NCBI GenBank assembly: GCA_028698305.1
Contig: JAQVDN010000005.1
Coordinates: 1 to 64,000, forward strand
Length of the DNA: 64,000 bases
Reading direction: 5' to 3'
Source: Candidatus Altimarinota bacterium
GTDB lineage: Bacteria; Patescibacteriota; Gracilibacteria; BD1-5; UBA6164
The notes under the pieces are model-generated. The model was not told the origin of the DNA, searched no databases, and worked only from the letters and a program-made list of their open reading frames with translations. Position numbers and translations under genes: made by a program. Positions 56,088 to 64,000 of this stretch are shown here, one piece after another (position 1 is the stretch's first letter; each line of letters starts with the position of its first letter).

Positions 56088-58195
56088 TTTATAAAGTAGA
56101 AATTTATTGGTGGCTTTAAATAATGTAATTGATAAGATTATTAATCCTAAATCTACAAAAGTAGAAATTTATTGGTGGCTTTAAATCAGGATTTTCTCCG
56201 AAAATTTCAATATATCTACAAAAGTAGAAATTTATTGGTGGCTTTAAATTAAATTCTACTGCAAAAGATTTCATATCTACAAAAGTAGAAATTTATTGGT
56301 GGCTTTAAATGCAACTCTAACTTGTCAATAAGCATAGGATCTACAAAAGTAGAAATTTATTGGTGGCTTTAAATTATAATTAGACCACATAAGATAGTAG
56401 AATCTACAAAAGTAGAAATTTATTGGTGGCTTTAAATAATCAGTATTAAGATTATCATCTTTGATCTACAAAAGTAGAAATTTATTGGTGGCTTTAAATT
56501 ATAATTAGACCACATAAGATAGTAGAATCTACAAAAGTAGAAATTTATTGGTGGCTTTAAATAACATCAACAGAATGAACAAAAGTCCTATCTACAAAAG
56601 TAGAAATTTATTGGTGGCTTTAAATTAAGAGATATGAGAGAAAATAAGTTAATCTACAAAAGTAGAAATTTATTGGTGGCTTTAAATATATTTCAATATC
56701 AAAGTAATAATAAAATCTACAAAAGTAGAAATTTATTGGTGGCTTTAAATATTCAAATTATAATTTCTTGACCGAATCTACAAAAGTAGAAATTTATTGG
56801 TGGCTTTAAATATTCAAATTATAATTTCTTGACCGAATCTACAAAAGTAGAAATTTATTGGTGGCTTTAAATTTTTTGCCGCTTGATTCCCTTCTTTTAT
56901 CTACAAAAGTAGAAATTTATTGGTGGCTTTAAATGTGCAATAAGTATTGCTTTAATGCTTTATCTACAAAAGTAGAAATTTATTGGTGGCTTTAAATGAA
57001 AAAGCAACTTTTGAAAAAACTCTTATCTACAAAAGTAGAAATTTATTGGTGGCTTTAAATACAATGGCTAATAGAACAAAATTATATTATCTACAAAAGT
57101 AGAAATTTATTGGTGGCTTTAAATTACAACTCATTTTAAATCTAATCATCTATCTACAAAAGTAGAAATTTATTGGTGGCTTTAAATTACAACTCATTTT
57201 AAATCTAATCATCTATCTACAAAAGTAGAAATTTATTGGTGGCTTTAAATAAAAGCCAAAAGTAACACAACCTACTAATCTACAAAAGTAGAAATTTATT
57301 GGTGGCTTTAAATGAGTAAATGGAACATCTTGATCAACATATCTACAAAAGTAGAAATTTATTGGTGGCTTTAAATTTGACAATTGGGCTGTTAAGGGTA
57401 TAGATCTACAAAAGTAGAAATTTATTGGTGGCTTTAAATTTTTCTATTAGAATCAATAAAGCTTTATCTACAAAAGTAGAAATTTATTGGTGGCTTTAAA
57501 TACAAGAACAAAAAATCAAAGAAGCAAATCTACAAAAGTAGAAATTTATTGGTGGCTTTAAATACAAGAACAAAAAATCAAAGAAGCAAATCTACAAAAG
57601 TAGAAATTTATTGGTGGCTTTAAATTGATTTATTAATGTCTGATTGAATAAATCTACAAAAGTAGAAATTTATTGGTGGCTTTAAATGCTATAAATGCAG
57701 GATTTGCTAATTGTATCTACAAAAGTAGAAATTTATTGGTGGCTTTAAATAAAAAAAATTTAAAAAAGAATTACTTAATCTACAAAAGTAGAAATTTATT
57801 GGTGGCTTTAAATTTTCAGAGGAATAGTGATAATTTCTTGATCTACAAAAGTAGAAATTTATTGGTGGCTTTAAATTCTTTTTTGTCAAACTCAAAATAG
57901 AAGCATCTACAAAAGTAGAAATTTATTGGTGGCTTTAAATATTGAGCTACTCCAGTTAATTATTATATATCTACAAAAGTAGAAATTTATTGGTGGCTTT
58001 AAATATAAGGGGGGTATGAGATAAAACTATTTATCTACAAAAGTAGAAATTTATTGGTGGCTTTAAATACTGCTAAAATATTTGCTTGAAACCAAATCTA
58101 CAAAAGTAGAAATTTATTGGTGGCTTTAAATCAACTATGTCAAATTCGCTTGAAAGCTCATCTACAAAAGTAGAAATTTATTGGTGGCTTTAAAT
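56088..58195 (-). CRISPR. CRISPR array, type V-A-like repeat, 34 repeats and 33 spacers
   Basis: The 36-bp repeat begins ATCTACAAAAGTAG and ends TTGGTGGCTTTAAAT on the plus strand. Its minus-strand 3' end, AATTTCTACTTTTGTAGAT, is the Cas12a-type handle with stem TCTAC/GTAGA, so the array is transcribed right to left. Repeats are identical except the leftmost (56088-56121), which is degenerate and marks the trailer. Spacers are 25-29 bp. Four occur twice: three as adjacent duplicates (ending in repeats at about 56776/56837, 57152/57215, 57528/57590) and one with a single spacer between copies (before 56402 and 56527). Confidence 0.98.
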
Positions 58196-58420
58196 AGCAT
58201 TTTTATTTTAAACAAGCCAAAAAGATACAAATAATTTATATTTCAAAATTATGACTTATGGCTTATTTAAAGTATTGTCTAAATATTAAGACTTAGGTTT
58301 ACATTTTTTTTAAAACAAACAACATAACTTCCACTTTTAATAAAATTTTTTATTAAAAGTTACAGATTATTTTAAAGAACTTTTAATCATTATATAAATA
58401 AAATTTACTTTTCAAACTTT
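58196..58420 (-). promoter_or_regulatory. CRISPR leader
   Basis: 225 bp of AT-rich DNA between the last perfect repeat and the cas2 stop. Repeat degeneration at the opposite end and minus-strand transcription place the leader here. Contains an AACTTTTAATAAAA/TTTTATTAAAAGTT-type inverted repeat (about 58330-58363), which may end the cas transcript. Confidence 0.7.
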
Positions 58421-58699
58421 TTACAAAAATAATATTTCTTCTTCTTCCAAAGCAGGTTGTCAGTACCTAATTACCTTATCATTATTTGCCTTTGAAATAG
58501 GGAATAATAATATACTATCTGCTCATGTAAATTTTTTACTATATACTTCTTCTATTTCTCTTTTTAGTATATTTAAAATCCTTTCACTATTTTTAATTTC
58601 AAAAACACTATATTGTAACCTTCTACCATATTTTTTTAATAATTTACCAAATTTAGTTCTTGTTTTGTCATCATGTATGTCATATGTAACTATTAGCAT
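58421..58699 (-). CDS. cas2: CRISPR-associated endonuclease Cas2
   Basis: 92 residues starting MLIVTYDIHDDKTRTKFGKL, the Cas2 ferredoxin-like fold with the active-site aspartate in TYDIHDD, then YGRRLQYSVFEIK. With Cas1 it forms the spacer-integration complex. Start is two bases after the Cas1 stop, so it is the last gene of the operon. Confidence 0.96.
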
Positions 58700-58701
58700 A
58701 T

Positions 58702-59667
58702 TTATTCATTAATTTTAAATTTTGGAAACTCATTTCTTCATTTCATAAAATATTTATAATAGTCTTTTATAAATATAAACATTTCTTTTTTGTAACTAAG
58801 TAATTCTTTAAAAAATATAGCATTGTATTTCCTAGAATTTTCCCATGGTAAAATGTATTGTCAGTTTTGAAACTTAAAATCTTTTTCATTGATCTGTCAT
58901 AAATTATATGCTTTCAAAACTGCCTTATCTATGATACACCTAAATGGTTCCATTAAATCAAGTGCTAGAGATTTTCTAGCATACCAAGTTCTATGATATA
59001 CTCCATAGTAATTATCAAATCAATATAACCTCAATAAAGCTTCTATAAAATGAAATAAATAAGTATATCATATATCTAAAAGTAGATTTTTTATATCCAT
59101 CTTTGTTCTAGGAGCTCTTTTGTACCAGCCTATTTTTTTGAAATAATTTGTAAAAAATAATTTTGATACATTTCATTCATAACCTAATAAGCTCTCATAA
59201 TTATCAACACTATCAATTTTTGTGATTATACCATTTATCTTTGTTATATCTCATTTTATATCTAAGTCTTTTTCTCTTATAGCTTTCAATAATTCAAGTT
59301 GATTATGTGTTTTTAGTTTTATTATACTTTTTGCTATTTCAAGCATTTCTTCTTCTGTTTTTTCGTATTGTTTTTTTCTAAGTACATAGTTTCACTCTGT
59401 TTCGTTTCATATAACTAGATATGGAGTAAAGTTTTTTTTCATCATAACAAGTGTGATTCAATACTCTTGAAATTTTCTTATAAGCACACTTGTAATAGTT
59501 GTTTCTCAAATTAAGAATATAGCAAATATCTTGAATAAGCTAATTTTATTTTTTATAATTCCTTCTTCTTTTATAGTTAAATTTTCGTTTTCAAAATTTA
59601 TATTTTTTGTATCAAAACTTTCTATAAATATAATTTGTTTTTCATCAAAATCTGGTAATTGAAGCAT
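58702..59667 (-). CDS. cas1: CRISPR-associated endonuclease/integrase Cas1
   Basis: 321 residues. The N-terminal beta domain precedes the helical catalytic domain with GYTYLFHFIEALLRLYGFDN, YYGVYHRTWYARKSLALDLM (His) and MEPFRCIIDKAV (Asp region), the Cas1 metal-site signatures. It integrates protospacers at the leader end. Nine bases separate it from cas4. Confidence 0.96.
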
Positions 59668-59676
59668 ATTTATAAG

Positions 59677-60282
59677 TTATTCAAATAAATGTAATTGAGG
59701 ATAAACTTCTCAAATATAATAATCACATAATTCTCTATAAATACATTTCATACATTTACTTGTATTTTGAGACCATTTTTTTGTGTTTGGATTAAATCTT
59801 CTATATTCTTCAAGTAGATTTTGAAACTTTATAAGTCATTTATTATCAGGCTTATAAATAGGGTACTTTTTGTTATCTTTCATACTATAAAGAGATATCT
59901 TTTTTATATGATATCATAACTCTTCCAGGCAAAACATTTGTCACCGAAGTTGGTATTTGTATCAAGTATAGATTTTTTCTTTGTTGTTTTCATCTCTATG
60001 TACTTGATTTTTTCTTTCTATTAATTCTCAAGTTTTTGTATTAAATATGTCTATTTTTCAAGAAATCTTAAAGTTTTCACTATATACATCTAGTCATTGT
60101 AGTATGTATTTACTTGTTGAATAGATTTTATTATCTATAGTTTCATGAGCTATCGTTCAAGCAATTTGAACCTCATCTTGATAGAGTTTTTTCTCATAAC
60201 TATCATATAATGTATGATAATAAATACTTTTGGGACAAAAGATAAAATCGTTTAGAGTAGATAATTTTATATAGGATTCCAT
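59677..60282 (-). CDS. cas4: CRISPR-associated exonuclease Cas4
   Basis: 201 residues. STLNDFIFCPKSIYYHTLYD carries the first cluster cysteine, VQIAGTIAHE the RecB-type histidine region, GKIDIFNTKTGELIERKN the nuclease D/EXK core, YKYQLRGQMFCLEEL the QxxxY-like motif, and SKCMKCIYRELCDYY the three C-terminal Fe-S cysteines. It trims protospacers and selects the PAM side. Its ATG lies two bases after the stop of the restriction endonuclease gene. Confidence 0.93.
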
Positions 60283-60284
60283 AG

Positions 60285-61346
60285 TTATTTTTTTAGGATA
60301 TCAATATTGTACTTGTGAATATAATTTTTTCTTTTTTCATTTAATAGAGTATTGATTATTTTATAATTTTTATTGTTTGGAAACATCATTTGTAGATATT
60401 TTTTGTAATCATCATTTGTAAATAATATTTCTCCATTTTCATTAAAATATATCTTATTATTATCATATAACTTATGAAATTGAGTAGGTAAATTAACTCA
60501 ATTATTTTCATCTGCTATCATATACCAATATCTTAAATCTAATTTTTTTATCTCAGATACTGGGTAAATATGCGCTGCTTCACACATATCTTCAGGTAAT
60601 TCTCAAAATAAATGATCGGTTGGTTTTATATTTCTTAATCTGTTTTTAAATATTCTTCTTAATTTTCATATTCTTAATTCATTTTTTTCTTTTTCATCAT
60701 TTATTTCTATTTTATAATTTGGAGATAATATTAATTCTATAAATTCATTTACATCACTAGAATTATCAATTTTATTTGTTATTTCATTTATTTCGTTAGA
60801 TTCCAATGCTGTAAATAATACTTTATTAAAATCTAGAAAATTACTTTTTATTTTAGGAAACATATCAAAATACTCTTCTAAGTTTATTTGTTTTAAATTT
60901 GAGTTCCTGATATAATTTTTTTCTTTATCTCTAATATTTTTAAAAAAATTAATGAACATATATTGATTATACTTTCATCAATATATTATATAAGGTGTCC
61001 TTTTTATATTGTAATCACTTCATGTTGGATTACTTCAAGTAGTAAATTTATCATGACTCAATATAGTTCATAAATTATTGAAAAAATAATTGTTTATATA
61101 TCTTATTTTTTCACTTGATAATTTTTCATTTGTTTTATAATCTCTCATTAATTCTTTTCTAAATTTAATAACATTTTTATCAAATTTAGTTCAATATTTT
61201 TCTTTTCATCTAAATTCTGTTCATTCTAAAAGCTCACACCATTCATCAATTATTAATCACTTATCATTAATCACATATTTTGCAATTCATTTTGTAAATG
61301 ATTTTGCTTTTGGTTTTGATACAAAAGGGATATTAATTATTTTCAT
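60285..61346 (-). CDS. HNH-family type II restriction endonuclease
   Basis: 353 residues. The N-terminal 230 residues show no known domain. The C-terminal part has CEAAHIYPVSEIKKLDLRYW (the first HNH histidine, about residue 256), ADENNGVNLPTQFHKLYDNN (Asn and final His) and IYFNENGEILF, the standard HNH order seen in many restriction enzymes (AAHI-P...NGI-L...H-LFD). With the adjacent C5 methyltransferase it makes a type II restriction-modification pair. It starts three bases downstream of the methyltransferase stop. TGA glycines are frequent, so it is adapted to the host code. Confidence 0.82.
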
Positions 61347-61349
61347 ATA

Positions 61350-62474
61350 CTATAGATAAAAATTAAAAATTTCTTCCAATACCTTAACATTTATTGAATT
61401 TCAAGCTAAAAATTTAATTTTTGCTTCTGAAATTCAGTATTTAACTAAATTATCATAAAAATCTTTATTTATAAATCATTGTAGTTTTAAATGTTCGTAA
61501 GCATTTAAATATATTATTTTTTCATTATGAAAAATTTTTATTCTTGATTGTGCTCCAGATGCAGTTATAGTTGGTGATTTTCAATCTTTAAAATATACAA
61601 AACTTTCAGCATTGAAATTAGAATATCACTTTATATAACTTTTTTTAATTCATGTTTTTTGATTCATTTGAATTATTTCAAATTTCCTATTTGTTTTAAA
61701 CAAGTCATGATTTAAGTTTTTTTCAAATATATCATCAATAAATTTAGTATTATTTATTTTATTTAATTTAAATTCATTAGGATTATTTCATAAATATGAA
61801 ACAATAAAGACTCTTTCTCTTCTTTGAGCTTCTCATAAATCGGCAGAATTAACTATAAATGGTTTTGTTGACTTATATCACATTTTTTCTAATTCAAATA
61901 TCCACTCATCTAAATCAGTTTTAAATGCTTCATTTAATATTGCTTTAACGTTTTCCATTAATAAAACCTTTGGTAAATATTTTTTATCTTTAAAATATAT
62001 TTCTTTAAGTATTCTTTCTATTTCCCATAGTAATCATGATCTTGATTTAGATTCTTTTGAAAATCATCTTTGTTTTCATTGCTGACTTATATCTTGACAG
62101 GGAAATGAATAAGTAAATAAATCTATATTTTTTTTCATTAATTGAACTCATTCTATAAACCTAATATCTAAATTTCAAAATTTATCTATTACTTGCTTTA
62201 AAATGGATAATTTTTCTTCACTTAATCATCATAAATATTTCGCTCTTTTTTTACTATCAAGACTTAATGAAAATTTTTCTAAAAATAATAAAACTTCTTT
62301 TTTATCTATACTTTTTGACTTTAATCTCAAGTGATTAACTCAATATGCAATAATGGCATCAGTATACCAATCACTAATTCAAGCAATATTAACTTTATAT
62401 CACAAATTTTTCAGTGCTTGATGTTGACTTCAAATTCATGAAAAAGCTTCAAATAATACAATTTTTTTACTCAT
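61350..62474 (-). CDS. DNA (cytosine-5-)-methyltransferase
   Basis: 374 residues. Motif I EAFSGIGSQHQALKNLG, motif IV FTYSFPCQDISQQGKQRGF with the catalytic PCQ (about 123), motif VI LLMENVKAIL, motif VIII EAQRRERVFIVSYLG, and motif X KIKFLAGNSINVKVLEEIF. The target-recognition region lies between VIII and IX. It protects host DNA from the HNH nuclease encoded next. First gene of the tight operon methyltransferase - HNH nuclease - cas4 - cas1 - cas2. Confidence 0.95.
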
Positions 62475-62747
62475 AAAAAGGCACTTACTATATAAAGTAA
62501 ACGCCATAAAACTAAAAAGTATAAAATACTTTTTTTAATTCAAAAATAGATTTTTAGGCAATATAAAAAGGAGGAAATTAGCTACCTGATTATATCGCCA
62601 AAAAACCTAAATATGTGTAAAAAAACATAAATAAGGAGAGGAAAAGCTAATTTCCTCCTTTTTATTTTCTTTTACACATATATCATATTTAGTTTTTTTG
62701 GCTTTTTAATTCTAGTCGTATTTTAAAAGAATTCAAGCAAAAGAAAA
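62475..62747. promoter_or_regulatory. Intergenic region with two interleaved long inverted repeats
   Basis: Arm B1 (62565-62583, core AAAGGAGGAAATTAGC) pairs perfectly over 19 bp with B2 (62645-62663). Arm A1 (62597-62621, GCCAAAAAACCTAAATATG) pairs with A2 (62671-62702) apart from a 7-nt insert in A2. The order B1-A1-B2-A2 cannot form two nested hairpins, so an RNA from here would be pseudoknotted or switch between two forms. It must also contain the promoter of the R-M/cas operon. No gene seen. Confidence 0.7.
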
Positions 62748-62775
62748 AAACTACCATAAAATGGTAGTTTTTAGA
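62748..62775 (-). terminator. Terminator of the type V effector gene
   Basis: Stem AAAAACTACCAT/ATGGTAGTTTTT overlapping the stop codon, with a run of T in the minus-strand sense. Confidence 0.85.
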
Positions 62776-64000
62776 GTCAAATTTTACAACATATATTATA
62801 AGCTCAATTATCATCTCAATTTTTAATTAAATCTAAATTTAATCATTCTTTTTTATATTTTTTTATAACTATATTATTATCTTTTCAAGTTATAAATCAA
62901 CAGTCACTACAAGTTGTAATATTATCTTTTCTCTTTACATTTATTGATTTACAAATAGGACATCTTTTACTTGTGTTATGTGGTCTTACAAAACTAACTA
63001 TTCAAAACTTTCTATAGTTTTCAGTTTGAACCCATAAAATTTTTTCTTTTTCAAAATTTAATTTATTTACATTATCTAAAGAATTAAAAAATGGAACTAA
63101 ATGTAATATTCATTCTTCAACCGAAACTTTATATAACTTTCTTAATAACTGATTTTCAAAAAAATGATAAGTTCACATTCAAGCTAAAGCTCAATTTTCT
63201 TGATCTTTAAAATTTGTTTTTATTGAAATATAACTGTTATTTAATCAATCATTTTGTCACATAAAAGATTGATTTAAATTTTCAACTGCAATTTTTACTT
63301 TATAATCATATTTTTTCATTAAATAAACTATCACTCAAATCATATTTGCAATAACTCATTTTTTTAAATCTTCACTAGAATCAAGCTCAATTGTAAGTTT
63401 CATTAAATTTTGTTTTTCTATTTCTGATAAAGTTTTATCATTTTTCAACTTTTCATAGTTTTCAAACATTTCTTCAAAAATATTTACTGGCAAATCTTCA
63501 AAATGATGTCATTCTTTGTAAGGAGTTATTAATTCTTTTATATTATTTTGTCTTTCTTCTTTTGTTTGATACTTTTTTAAAAAATTCAAAACTCATTTTT
63601 CATTTGAAGACATTTGATATTGTAACTTTCTTATATAAGCTAATTGCTTTAATTTTATATTTTGTTTATTTGTTCAAGTTGAATTTCAATTTTCATCTTT
63701 TGCTTCAAATAGAGACAAATCAACTAAAAATTTATTTCAATCTTTATCTGATTCAATTTTTAAATTTGTTAAATCTAAAATTCATTCAATTCTATTCTTT
63801 TTATATTCCCATTTTTTAGAATTATTATTAAAATATTTTGTATAAATCTCATAACTTTGAATAATTCAATTTTTGTTTGTAATACATAATGTAGCTAATT
63901 GTTTTATTCACCTATCAATTCAAAAAATATAATAATCATCTAAACTATCAAAATATTTATTTACTTTTTCTTTATTAAAATTTTGAACTAATTCGTTTTG
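62771..64000 (-). CDS. Type V CRISPR effector, Cas12a2-like (C-terminal 409 residues; start outside window)
   Basis: The frame enters from the right edge and ends at TAA 62771-62773. Visible motifs: RuvC I in YYIFGIDRGIKQLATLCI (about residue 25), RuvC II in KVKIAVENLNQSF (about 237), then FGIVSFVRPHNTSKRCPICKS and ITTCSDCGF, a CxxC...CxxC zinc ribbon (about 344), and RuvC III in NGDDNGAYNICCKIGL at the very end. In Cas12a the segment after YVPAWNTSKIDP opens the Nuc domain; here a short zinc ribbon replaces it, as in Cas12a2, which shares Cas12a-type crRNAs but cuts nucleic acid non-specifically on recognising target RNA. Other zinc-ribbon Cas12 types cannot be fully excluded without the N-terminal part. 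Confidence 0.8.

Follow-up and report, generated by a model that had tools for sequence, protein, structure and literature searches.

Leader RNAs that act by transcription attenuation and the expression platforms of riboswitches combine competing helices, strand exchange, and an intrinsic terminator located before the gene. In the antisense RNA-mediated attenuation of plasmid replication genes of the pT181/pIP501 type, loop-loop complementarity is found together with a terminator just before the gene. Restriction-modification (R-M) genes must be controlled on entering a cell. The known means of R-M control comprise controller proteins, methyltransferase autoregulation, promoter methylation, and antisense RNAs, e.g., those of EcoRI and Eco29kI, which are reverse-promoter transcripts from within the R gene (PMC3874152, PMC12707154). 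Two reviews of R-M regulation also describe hairpins limiting access to translation starts, and a term search of both retrieved neither a riboswitch nor a leader attenuator of the present kind. The RCd22/abiF RNA motif neutralizes one toxin family by direct binding and acts in cis and in trans (PMC12373285).

The element described here lies in the window, i.e., the whole 64,000-nucleotide stretch of DNA that was analyzed. Judged from sequence comparison and folding, it is probably the structured minus-strand 5' leader RNA of a methyltransferase-HNH-cas4-cas1-cas2 operon, acting as a bistable transcription attenuator. The RNA family to which it belongs is firmly supported and previously undescribed.

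Anatomy of the leader and its genomic surroundings

The sequence-only reading of this locus had noticed two long inverted repeats in the interleaved order B1-A1-B2-A2, which was borne out. B1 and B2 constitute the perfect 19-bp inverted repeat that had been described (see B1' and B2' in Table 1), and their complementarity is 96% when stretched to 24 nt; in Markov-1 sequence of the same composition, ~0.01 perfect 19-bp inverted repeats within 150 nt would be expected per 64 kb. The pairing of A1 with A2 is likewise present, but it consists of two adjacent imperfect arms (62589-62631 with 62661-62710) with 85% and 90% complementarity, between which A2 has 7 additional nt. The repeats themselves are beyond doubt, since homologues keep both pairings despite different sequences. 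The functional strand is the minus strand. The AGGAGG seen within B1 is incidental: it is missing from the other sequence classes and hence no conserved feature of the family.

The whole element is larger than the two repeats (~62475-62736). The leader of ~230 nt (window 62736-62475, minus strand) carries its own predicted promoter at the 5' end, and its 3' end is an intrinsic-terminator hairpin adjoining the start codon of the gene for a C5 DNA methyltransferase. The order from 5' to 3' is promoter, A2', P2 5' strand, B2', D, P2 3' strand, A1', a loop with B1', C', P4, E, terminator, and ATG (Table 1). Transcription is predicted to start at or beside position 62702, and the -35/-10 pair lies at the same distance from the conserved 5' end of the leader in nearly all copies. 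The predicted fold of most copies comprises P2, P3 (A1':C'), and P4 plus a long A2':E stem. By-eye inspection of the leader revealed no conserved reading frame for a leader peptide. An internal TATAAT promoter was rejected, as the TATAAT-like motif found inside P3 in sequence class 1 is absent from class 2.

Table 1. Features of the leader and its operon (window positions; primed names refer to the minus-strand RNA, repeat names to the sequence-only reading)
Feature	Position	Strand	Sequence or signal	Partner or role	Support
Predicted promoter	62709..62736	-	-35 TTGAAT (62731-62736), 16-nt spacer, -10 TAGAAT (62709-62714)		
A2', proximal strand (repeat A2)	62692..62702	-	GCCAAAAAAAC	RNA 5' end; partner A1' or E	
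Variable stem P2, 5' strand (distal part, repeat A2)	62664..62691	-			P2 fold; own-versus-other duplex test, 0/5000
B2' (repeat B2)	62645..62663	-	AAAAAGGAGGAAATTAGCT	Partner D locally or B1'	Covariation
D	62633..62645	-	TTTTCCTCTCCTT	B2' partner in local hairpin	
Variable stem P2, 3' strand (distal part, repeat A1)	62608..62632	-			
A1' / P3 5' strand	62590..62607	-	GGTTTTTTGGCGATATAA	Switching strand; partner A2' or C'	Two covarying partners
B1' in P3 loop (repeat B1)	62565..62583	-	AGCTAATTTCCTCCTTTTT	Partner B2'	Covariation
C' / P3 3' strand	62549..62566	-	TTATATTGCCTAAAAATC		P3 pair counts
P4, small hairpin	62514..62534	-	AAAAAGTAT TTT ATACTTTTT		
E	62503..62513	-	AGTTTTATGGC	Imperfectly complementary to A2' in the window copy; overlaps terminator base	
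Intrinsic-terminator-like hairpin	62475..62505	-	GGCGTTTACT-TTATAT-AGTAAGTGCC + TTTTT	Adjoins start codon	
C5 cytosine DNA methyltransferase	61350..62474	-	ATG at 62474	First operon gene	PF00145, 1.3e-43
HNH putative restriction endonuclease (MAG4270 family)	60285..61346	-			
cas4, cas1, cas2	58421..60282	-		Contiguous with R-M genes	

The methyltransferase start was taken as the ATG that directly follows the terminator, although another open frame, beginning at 62507, is longer. In table-4 translations, TGA positions match expected conserved glycines (e.g., in the DnaA Walker motif), and translation table 25 was therefore used. The operon runs from the methyltransferase via the HNH endonuclease, cas4, and cas1 to cas2 and is followed by a CRISPR array (window 56093-58196) with 34 repeats and several duplicated spacers (e.g., 56338/56463, 57089/57152, and 57473/57535). 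The repeat of this array belongs to the Cas12a type and does not resemble the element, which was accordingly rejected as a CRISPR repeat or tracrRNA. Two further observations in the window are tandem arrays of one 54-base unit, 1 kb apart and apparently within coding sequence (13625-13811 and 14645-14831), and a 101-nt Rfam tRNA match (16063-16163) that was not reported by ARAGORN and possibly has a long variable arm or an intron.

The upstream neighbor on the minus strand is a type V effector gene with a stop near 62771 and its own terminator (62743-62772). The effector (window 62771-64000) is present at its full length of 1223 aa in locus L010 (L010:1772-5443, minus strand) and is most like Cas12a2, its sole PDB match being 8D49/8D4A/8D4B (E of 2.5e-216), of which 8D49/8D4A are Cas12a2 entries (PMC9849127). 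It has a zinc-ribbon-like C terminus, and the CRISPR array next to it is of the Cas12a type; the genome encoding it translates TGA as glycine. A Cas12a2-type gene that is 75% identical was found in a relative (L189; G011:C1:101000-113500), where no cas1/cas2/cas4 or R-M genes were seen adjoining it and where a reading frame resembling the translation of the repeat marks an apparent CRISPR-repeat remnant nearby. Since this gene of genome G011 has neither R-M genes nor the leader, the leader travels with the R-M module and not with the CRISPR effector.

An RNA family with covarying, mutually exclusive helices

A second copy in the same genome, which precedes an EcoRI-type methyltransferase and a GmrSD/HNH gene, keeps both helices through compensatory changes. 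DNA searches yielded 13 class-1 copies in the bacterial family, and the class-1 covariance model led to a second class that is unlike in sequence but has the same plan; conversely, model R2, which contains no class-1 sequence, finds the window copy with an E value of 5.7e-9. A second family within the order has a third class, which is located before EcoRI-type methyltransferases. With covariance models, 70 copies were detected in 38 of the 77 genomes of the order (E of 1e-5 or better), and the RNA family comprises ~75 leaders in total, in three sequence classes with one shared architecture. Some genomes contain many copies, e.g., G032 with seven and G030 and G036 with four each. The host order is Gracilibacteria-like and uses TGA for Gly; in a search of 242 genomes of the class, the covariance models found no copy outside the order, the 378 further genomes of the phylum yielded none either, and a pattern scan of genome contigs returned chance matches outside Gracilibacteria. 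Viral contigs contained no match to the conserved class-1 string and phage records none to the element. No family of Rfam 15 was found at or above its gathering score, the scores of a permissive search being far below gathering, and literature searches retrieved no description of this element.

According to Pfam, about half of the copies detected via the RNA are followed by R-M or DNA-nuclease genes, namely, C5, EcoRI-type, and N6/N4 methyltransferases, an HsdR-like ResIII protein, Tsp45I, HNH, and Mrr. The other genes behind the leader encode zinc-ribbon, pilin-like, YccF, subtilase, membrane, and secreted proteins. Of 20 EcoRI-type methyltransferase loci that were searched in the order, 18 have the leader directly upstream, including L172, whose score is weak (E of 0.06) and whose architecture is complete by eye; it is absent from L165 and L167. 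Adjoining one leader copy, a gene for a GajB-like helicase and an upstream OLD-type AAA/TOPRIM gene form a Gabija-like pair (L026:2694-5446).

The sequence-only reading had named covariation across homologous loci as a check, and both pairings are indeed kept in ~50 copies of differing sequence. Covariation of the B2':B1' helix was seen independently in classes 1 and 2, with 95.2% and 93.8% of the cells paired and with four and seven pairs changed on both sides, respectively; none of 500 shuffles reached the paired percentage or the covariation score. For P3, 97.9% and 91.1% are paired. A2':A1' is nearly invariant in class 1, which hence provides little evidence, but 95.7% paired in class 2, where 6 of 11 pairs are changed on both sides. 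The A1' columns that covary with A2' are the same that covary with C', and two covarying, mutually exclusive partners of a single strand are the signature of a bistable RNA. In a duplex test of own versus other strands in 51 copies, strands matched the partner from their own copy better than partners from elsewhere, with 0/5000 permutations for A2':A1', A1':C', B2':B1', and A2' with its downstream partner; for B2':B1' this test picked the best register and is thus biased in its favor, whereas the alignment counts are free of that bias. The signal of A2':E is weaker than that of the other helices, and a C':E pairing is also possible (14/5000).

With the register chosen neutrally, by Watson-Crick pairs only, the ratio of G.U to A.C pairs on the minus strand amounts to 84:6 for P3, 32:1 for the B helix, and 45:7 for the A helix. 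This wobble bias indicates that selection acts on the RNA transcribed toward the methyltransferase, and the same counts rule out a plus-strand RNA. Sensing of a Shine-Dalgarno or anti-Shine-Dalgarno sequence via AGGAGG/CCTCC was rejected as well, as classes 2 and 3 carry other sequences. Of the explanations originally offered, a pseudoknotted RNA and a two-state switch controlling the operon have gained support from the covariation of both helices, the two covarying partners of A1', the conserved strand being the one transcribed into the operon, and the terminator at the start codon.

The same data leave very little room for a DNA element, be it the end of a mobile element, a cassette site of the integron type, or the control-protein operator that had also been suggested. 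Inverted repeats and adjacent defense genes among accessory, often horizontally moving genes might point in this direction, but the wobble bias specifies one RNA strand, promoter and orientation are constant, and the repeats vary in sequence yet retain their pairing, a pattern for which a single DNA-binding protein would not account. The likewise suggested footprint of the R-M insertion is not supported, as each gene has one copy, in constant orientation and with a promoter, the other flank has none, and non-R-M genes are preceded as well. The two strong matches in this genome are each located 5' of a gene with none on the other flank, i.e., they do not flank a mobile element; an attC site sits 3' of each cassette, whereas the element is 5' of genes and has its own promoter; and with respect to a C-protein operator, the window locus contains no controller gene and the sequences differ between loci.

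Proposed terminator control and competing explanations

A GC-closed hairpin with a T-run ending just before the ATG was found at 38 of 56 leader genes, as against 3 of the 229 remaining genes of these loci; 18 of the 56 copies have no abutting terminator by this criterion. E overlaps the base of the terminator hairpin and changes along with A2', e.g., GCTAAAA/TTTTAGC (A2'/E) in L108 and G048, GCCAGAAT/ATTCTGG in G036, and CCGAG/CTCGG in class 3. When A2':A1' was forced in silico, the probability of the terminator base was 0.92-1.0 in all 19 R-M leaders; when A1':C' was forced, it fell in all 19, to 0.2-0.95 and mostly to <0.6. The imperfect E of the window copy limits the decrease there to one from 1.0 to 0.85. 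In the full-length RNA, A2':A1' is 2-11 kcal/mol less stable than P3, a comparison that ignores the B2':B1' pseudoknot, which the folding program cannot treat together with P3. The element hence has the sequence features of an attenuator, i.e., a 5' location between promoter and first gene, an intrinsic terminator before the gene, and mutually exclusive helices affecting this terminator, as indicated by covariation, the predicted terminator change, and A2':E, with the latter effect being weak in the window copy.

The sequence shows that A1' can pair either with the 5' end of the RNA (A2'), which extends P2, or with the downstream C' to form P3, and that B2' in the tip of P2 has two alternative partners, D and the B1' of the P3 loop. 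According to the attenuation mechanism that we infer, E would be free as long as A2':A1' holds, the terminator would form, and the operon would be off. Formation of P3 by A1':C', with B2':B1' as the bridge to P2, would release A2' to E, and the A2':E pairing would remove the terminator base and allow transcription into the genes; the B helix would stabilize the arrangement of P2 and P3. Since C' can in principle also pair with E, the terminator could be blocked in either fold at equilibrium, in which case OFF may be a kinetic state. As the switch must serve differing R-M enzyme families and other accessory genes, a shared cellular signal or a timer based on folding kinetics is a likelier trigger than the product of one system.

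Three further explanations at the RNA level have to be weighed. A trans-acting structured small RNA might merely end at the terminator, with the genes being read through by default or transcribed from another promoter. A compact RNA does lie between promoter and terminator, the predicted multibranched fold pairs its 5' end with its 3' end, and up to seven copies per genome occur; nevertheless, we regard this scenario as rather unlikely, as the T-run adjoins the start codon and leaves little room for a separate promoter, the element tracks specific genes in cis as in the EcoRI-type methyltransferase loci (18/20), and the RNA of the 18 of 56 copies without terminator would run into the gene.

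The fold might instead be the aptamer of a metabolite-binding riboswitch, e.g., for S-adenosylmethionine, which is used by all methyltransferases. The 5' position, the platform of the terminator/antiterminator type, and the pseudoknot-capable fold would suit such a function, which is unlikely given that the conserved bases are nearly all in helices and that the sequences of the three classes are far apart, as would not be expected of a conserved binding pocket. Furthermore, the element also precedes genes for zinc-ribbon, pilin, protease, and membrane proteins, and Rfam riboswitches do not match it. That control is mainly translational, with the last hairpin hiding the start codon, or that the element is an RNA thermometer seems still more doubtful: the hairpin is within a few nucleotides of the ATG and lacks a clear T-run in some copies (L107 and L112), but most R-M copies have a classic GC-closed stem followed by T5-6, and the ATG of the window copy lies after the stem and not within it.

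Relation to known regulatory RNAs

Beyond the present operon, the bistable attenuator may represent a general leader switch, used in one order to bring newly acquired or accessory genes under a single common signal at the RNA level, a proposal that we put forward tentatively; these genes would above all be various R-M systems and, in the present case, CRISPR adaptation genes as well. If true, the timing of methylation and restriction would be independent of any protein of the R-M system, and a shared, movable RNA leader before unrelated R-M systems would be a new answer to the problem of R-M control. A CRISPR adaptation operon adjoining a Cas12a2-type effector is likewise linked to this shared leader. 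With its covariance models, at least 70 copies, and three classes, the family is well defined, and the mechanism is directly testable in vitro.

The proposed RNA-level control of R-M genes resembles that by the EcoRI and Eco29kI antisense RNAs, but the element is a sense-strand leader common to unrelated R-M types. RCd22/abiF provides a precedent for a non-coding RNA associated with a defense gene, whereas the proteins encoded downstream of the element belong to different families. With the pT181/pIP501 systems, the element shares loop-loop complementarity and a terminator directly ahead of the gene; in contrast to these, the complementary strands are part of one RNA, and a conserved antisense promoter is absent. 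With transcription-attenuation leaders and riboswitch platforms, the element has the 5' leader, competing helices, terminator, and strand exchange in common. It differs from them in that no leader peptide, ligand, or regulator was found for it and no Rfam family matches, in that its switching strand has two nearly identical partners and is accompanied by an interleaved B helix, and in that it precedes R-M genes of several enzyme families. The element belongs to a new RNA family, probably of a known general kind, the leader switch, in an unusual place, i.e., before R-M and accessory genes.
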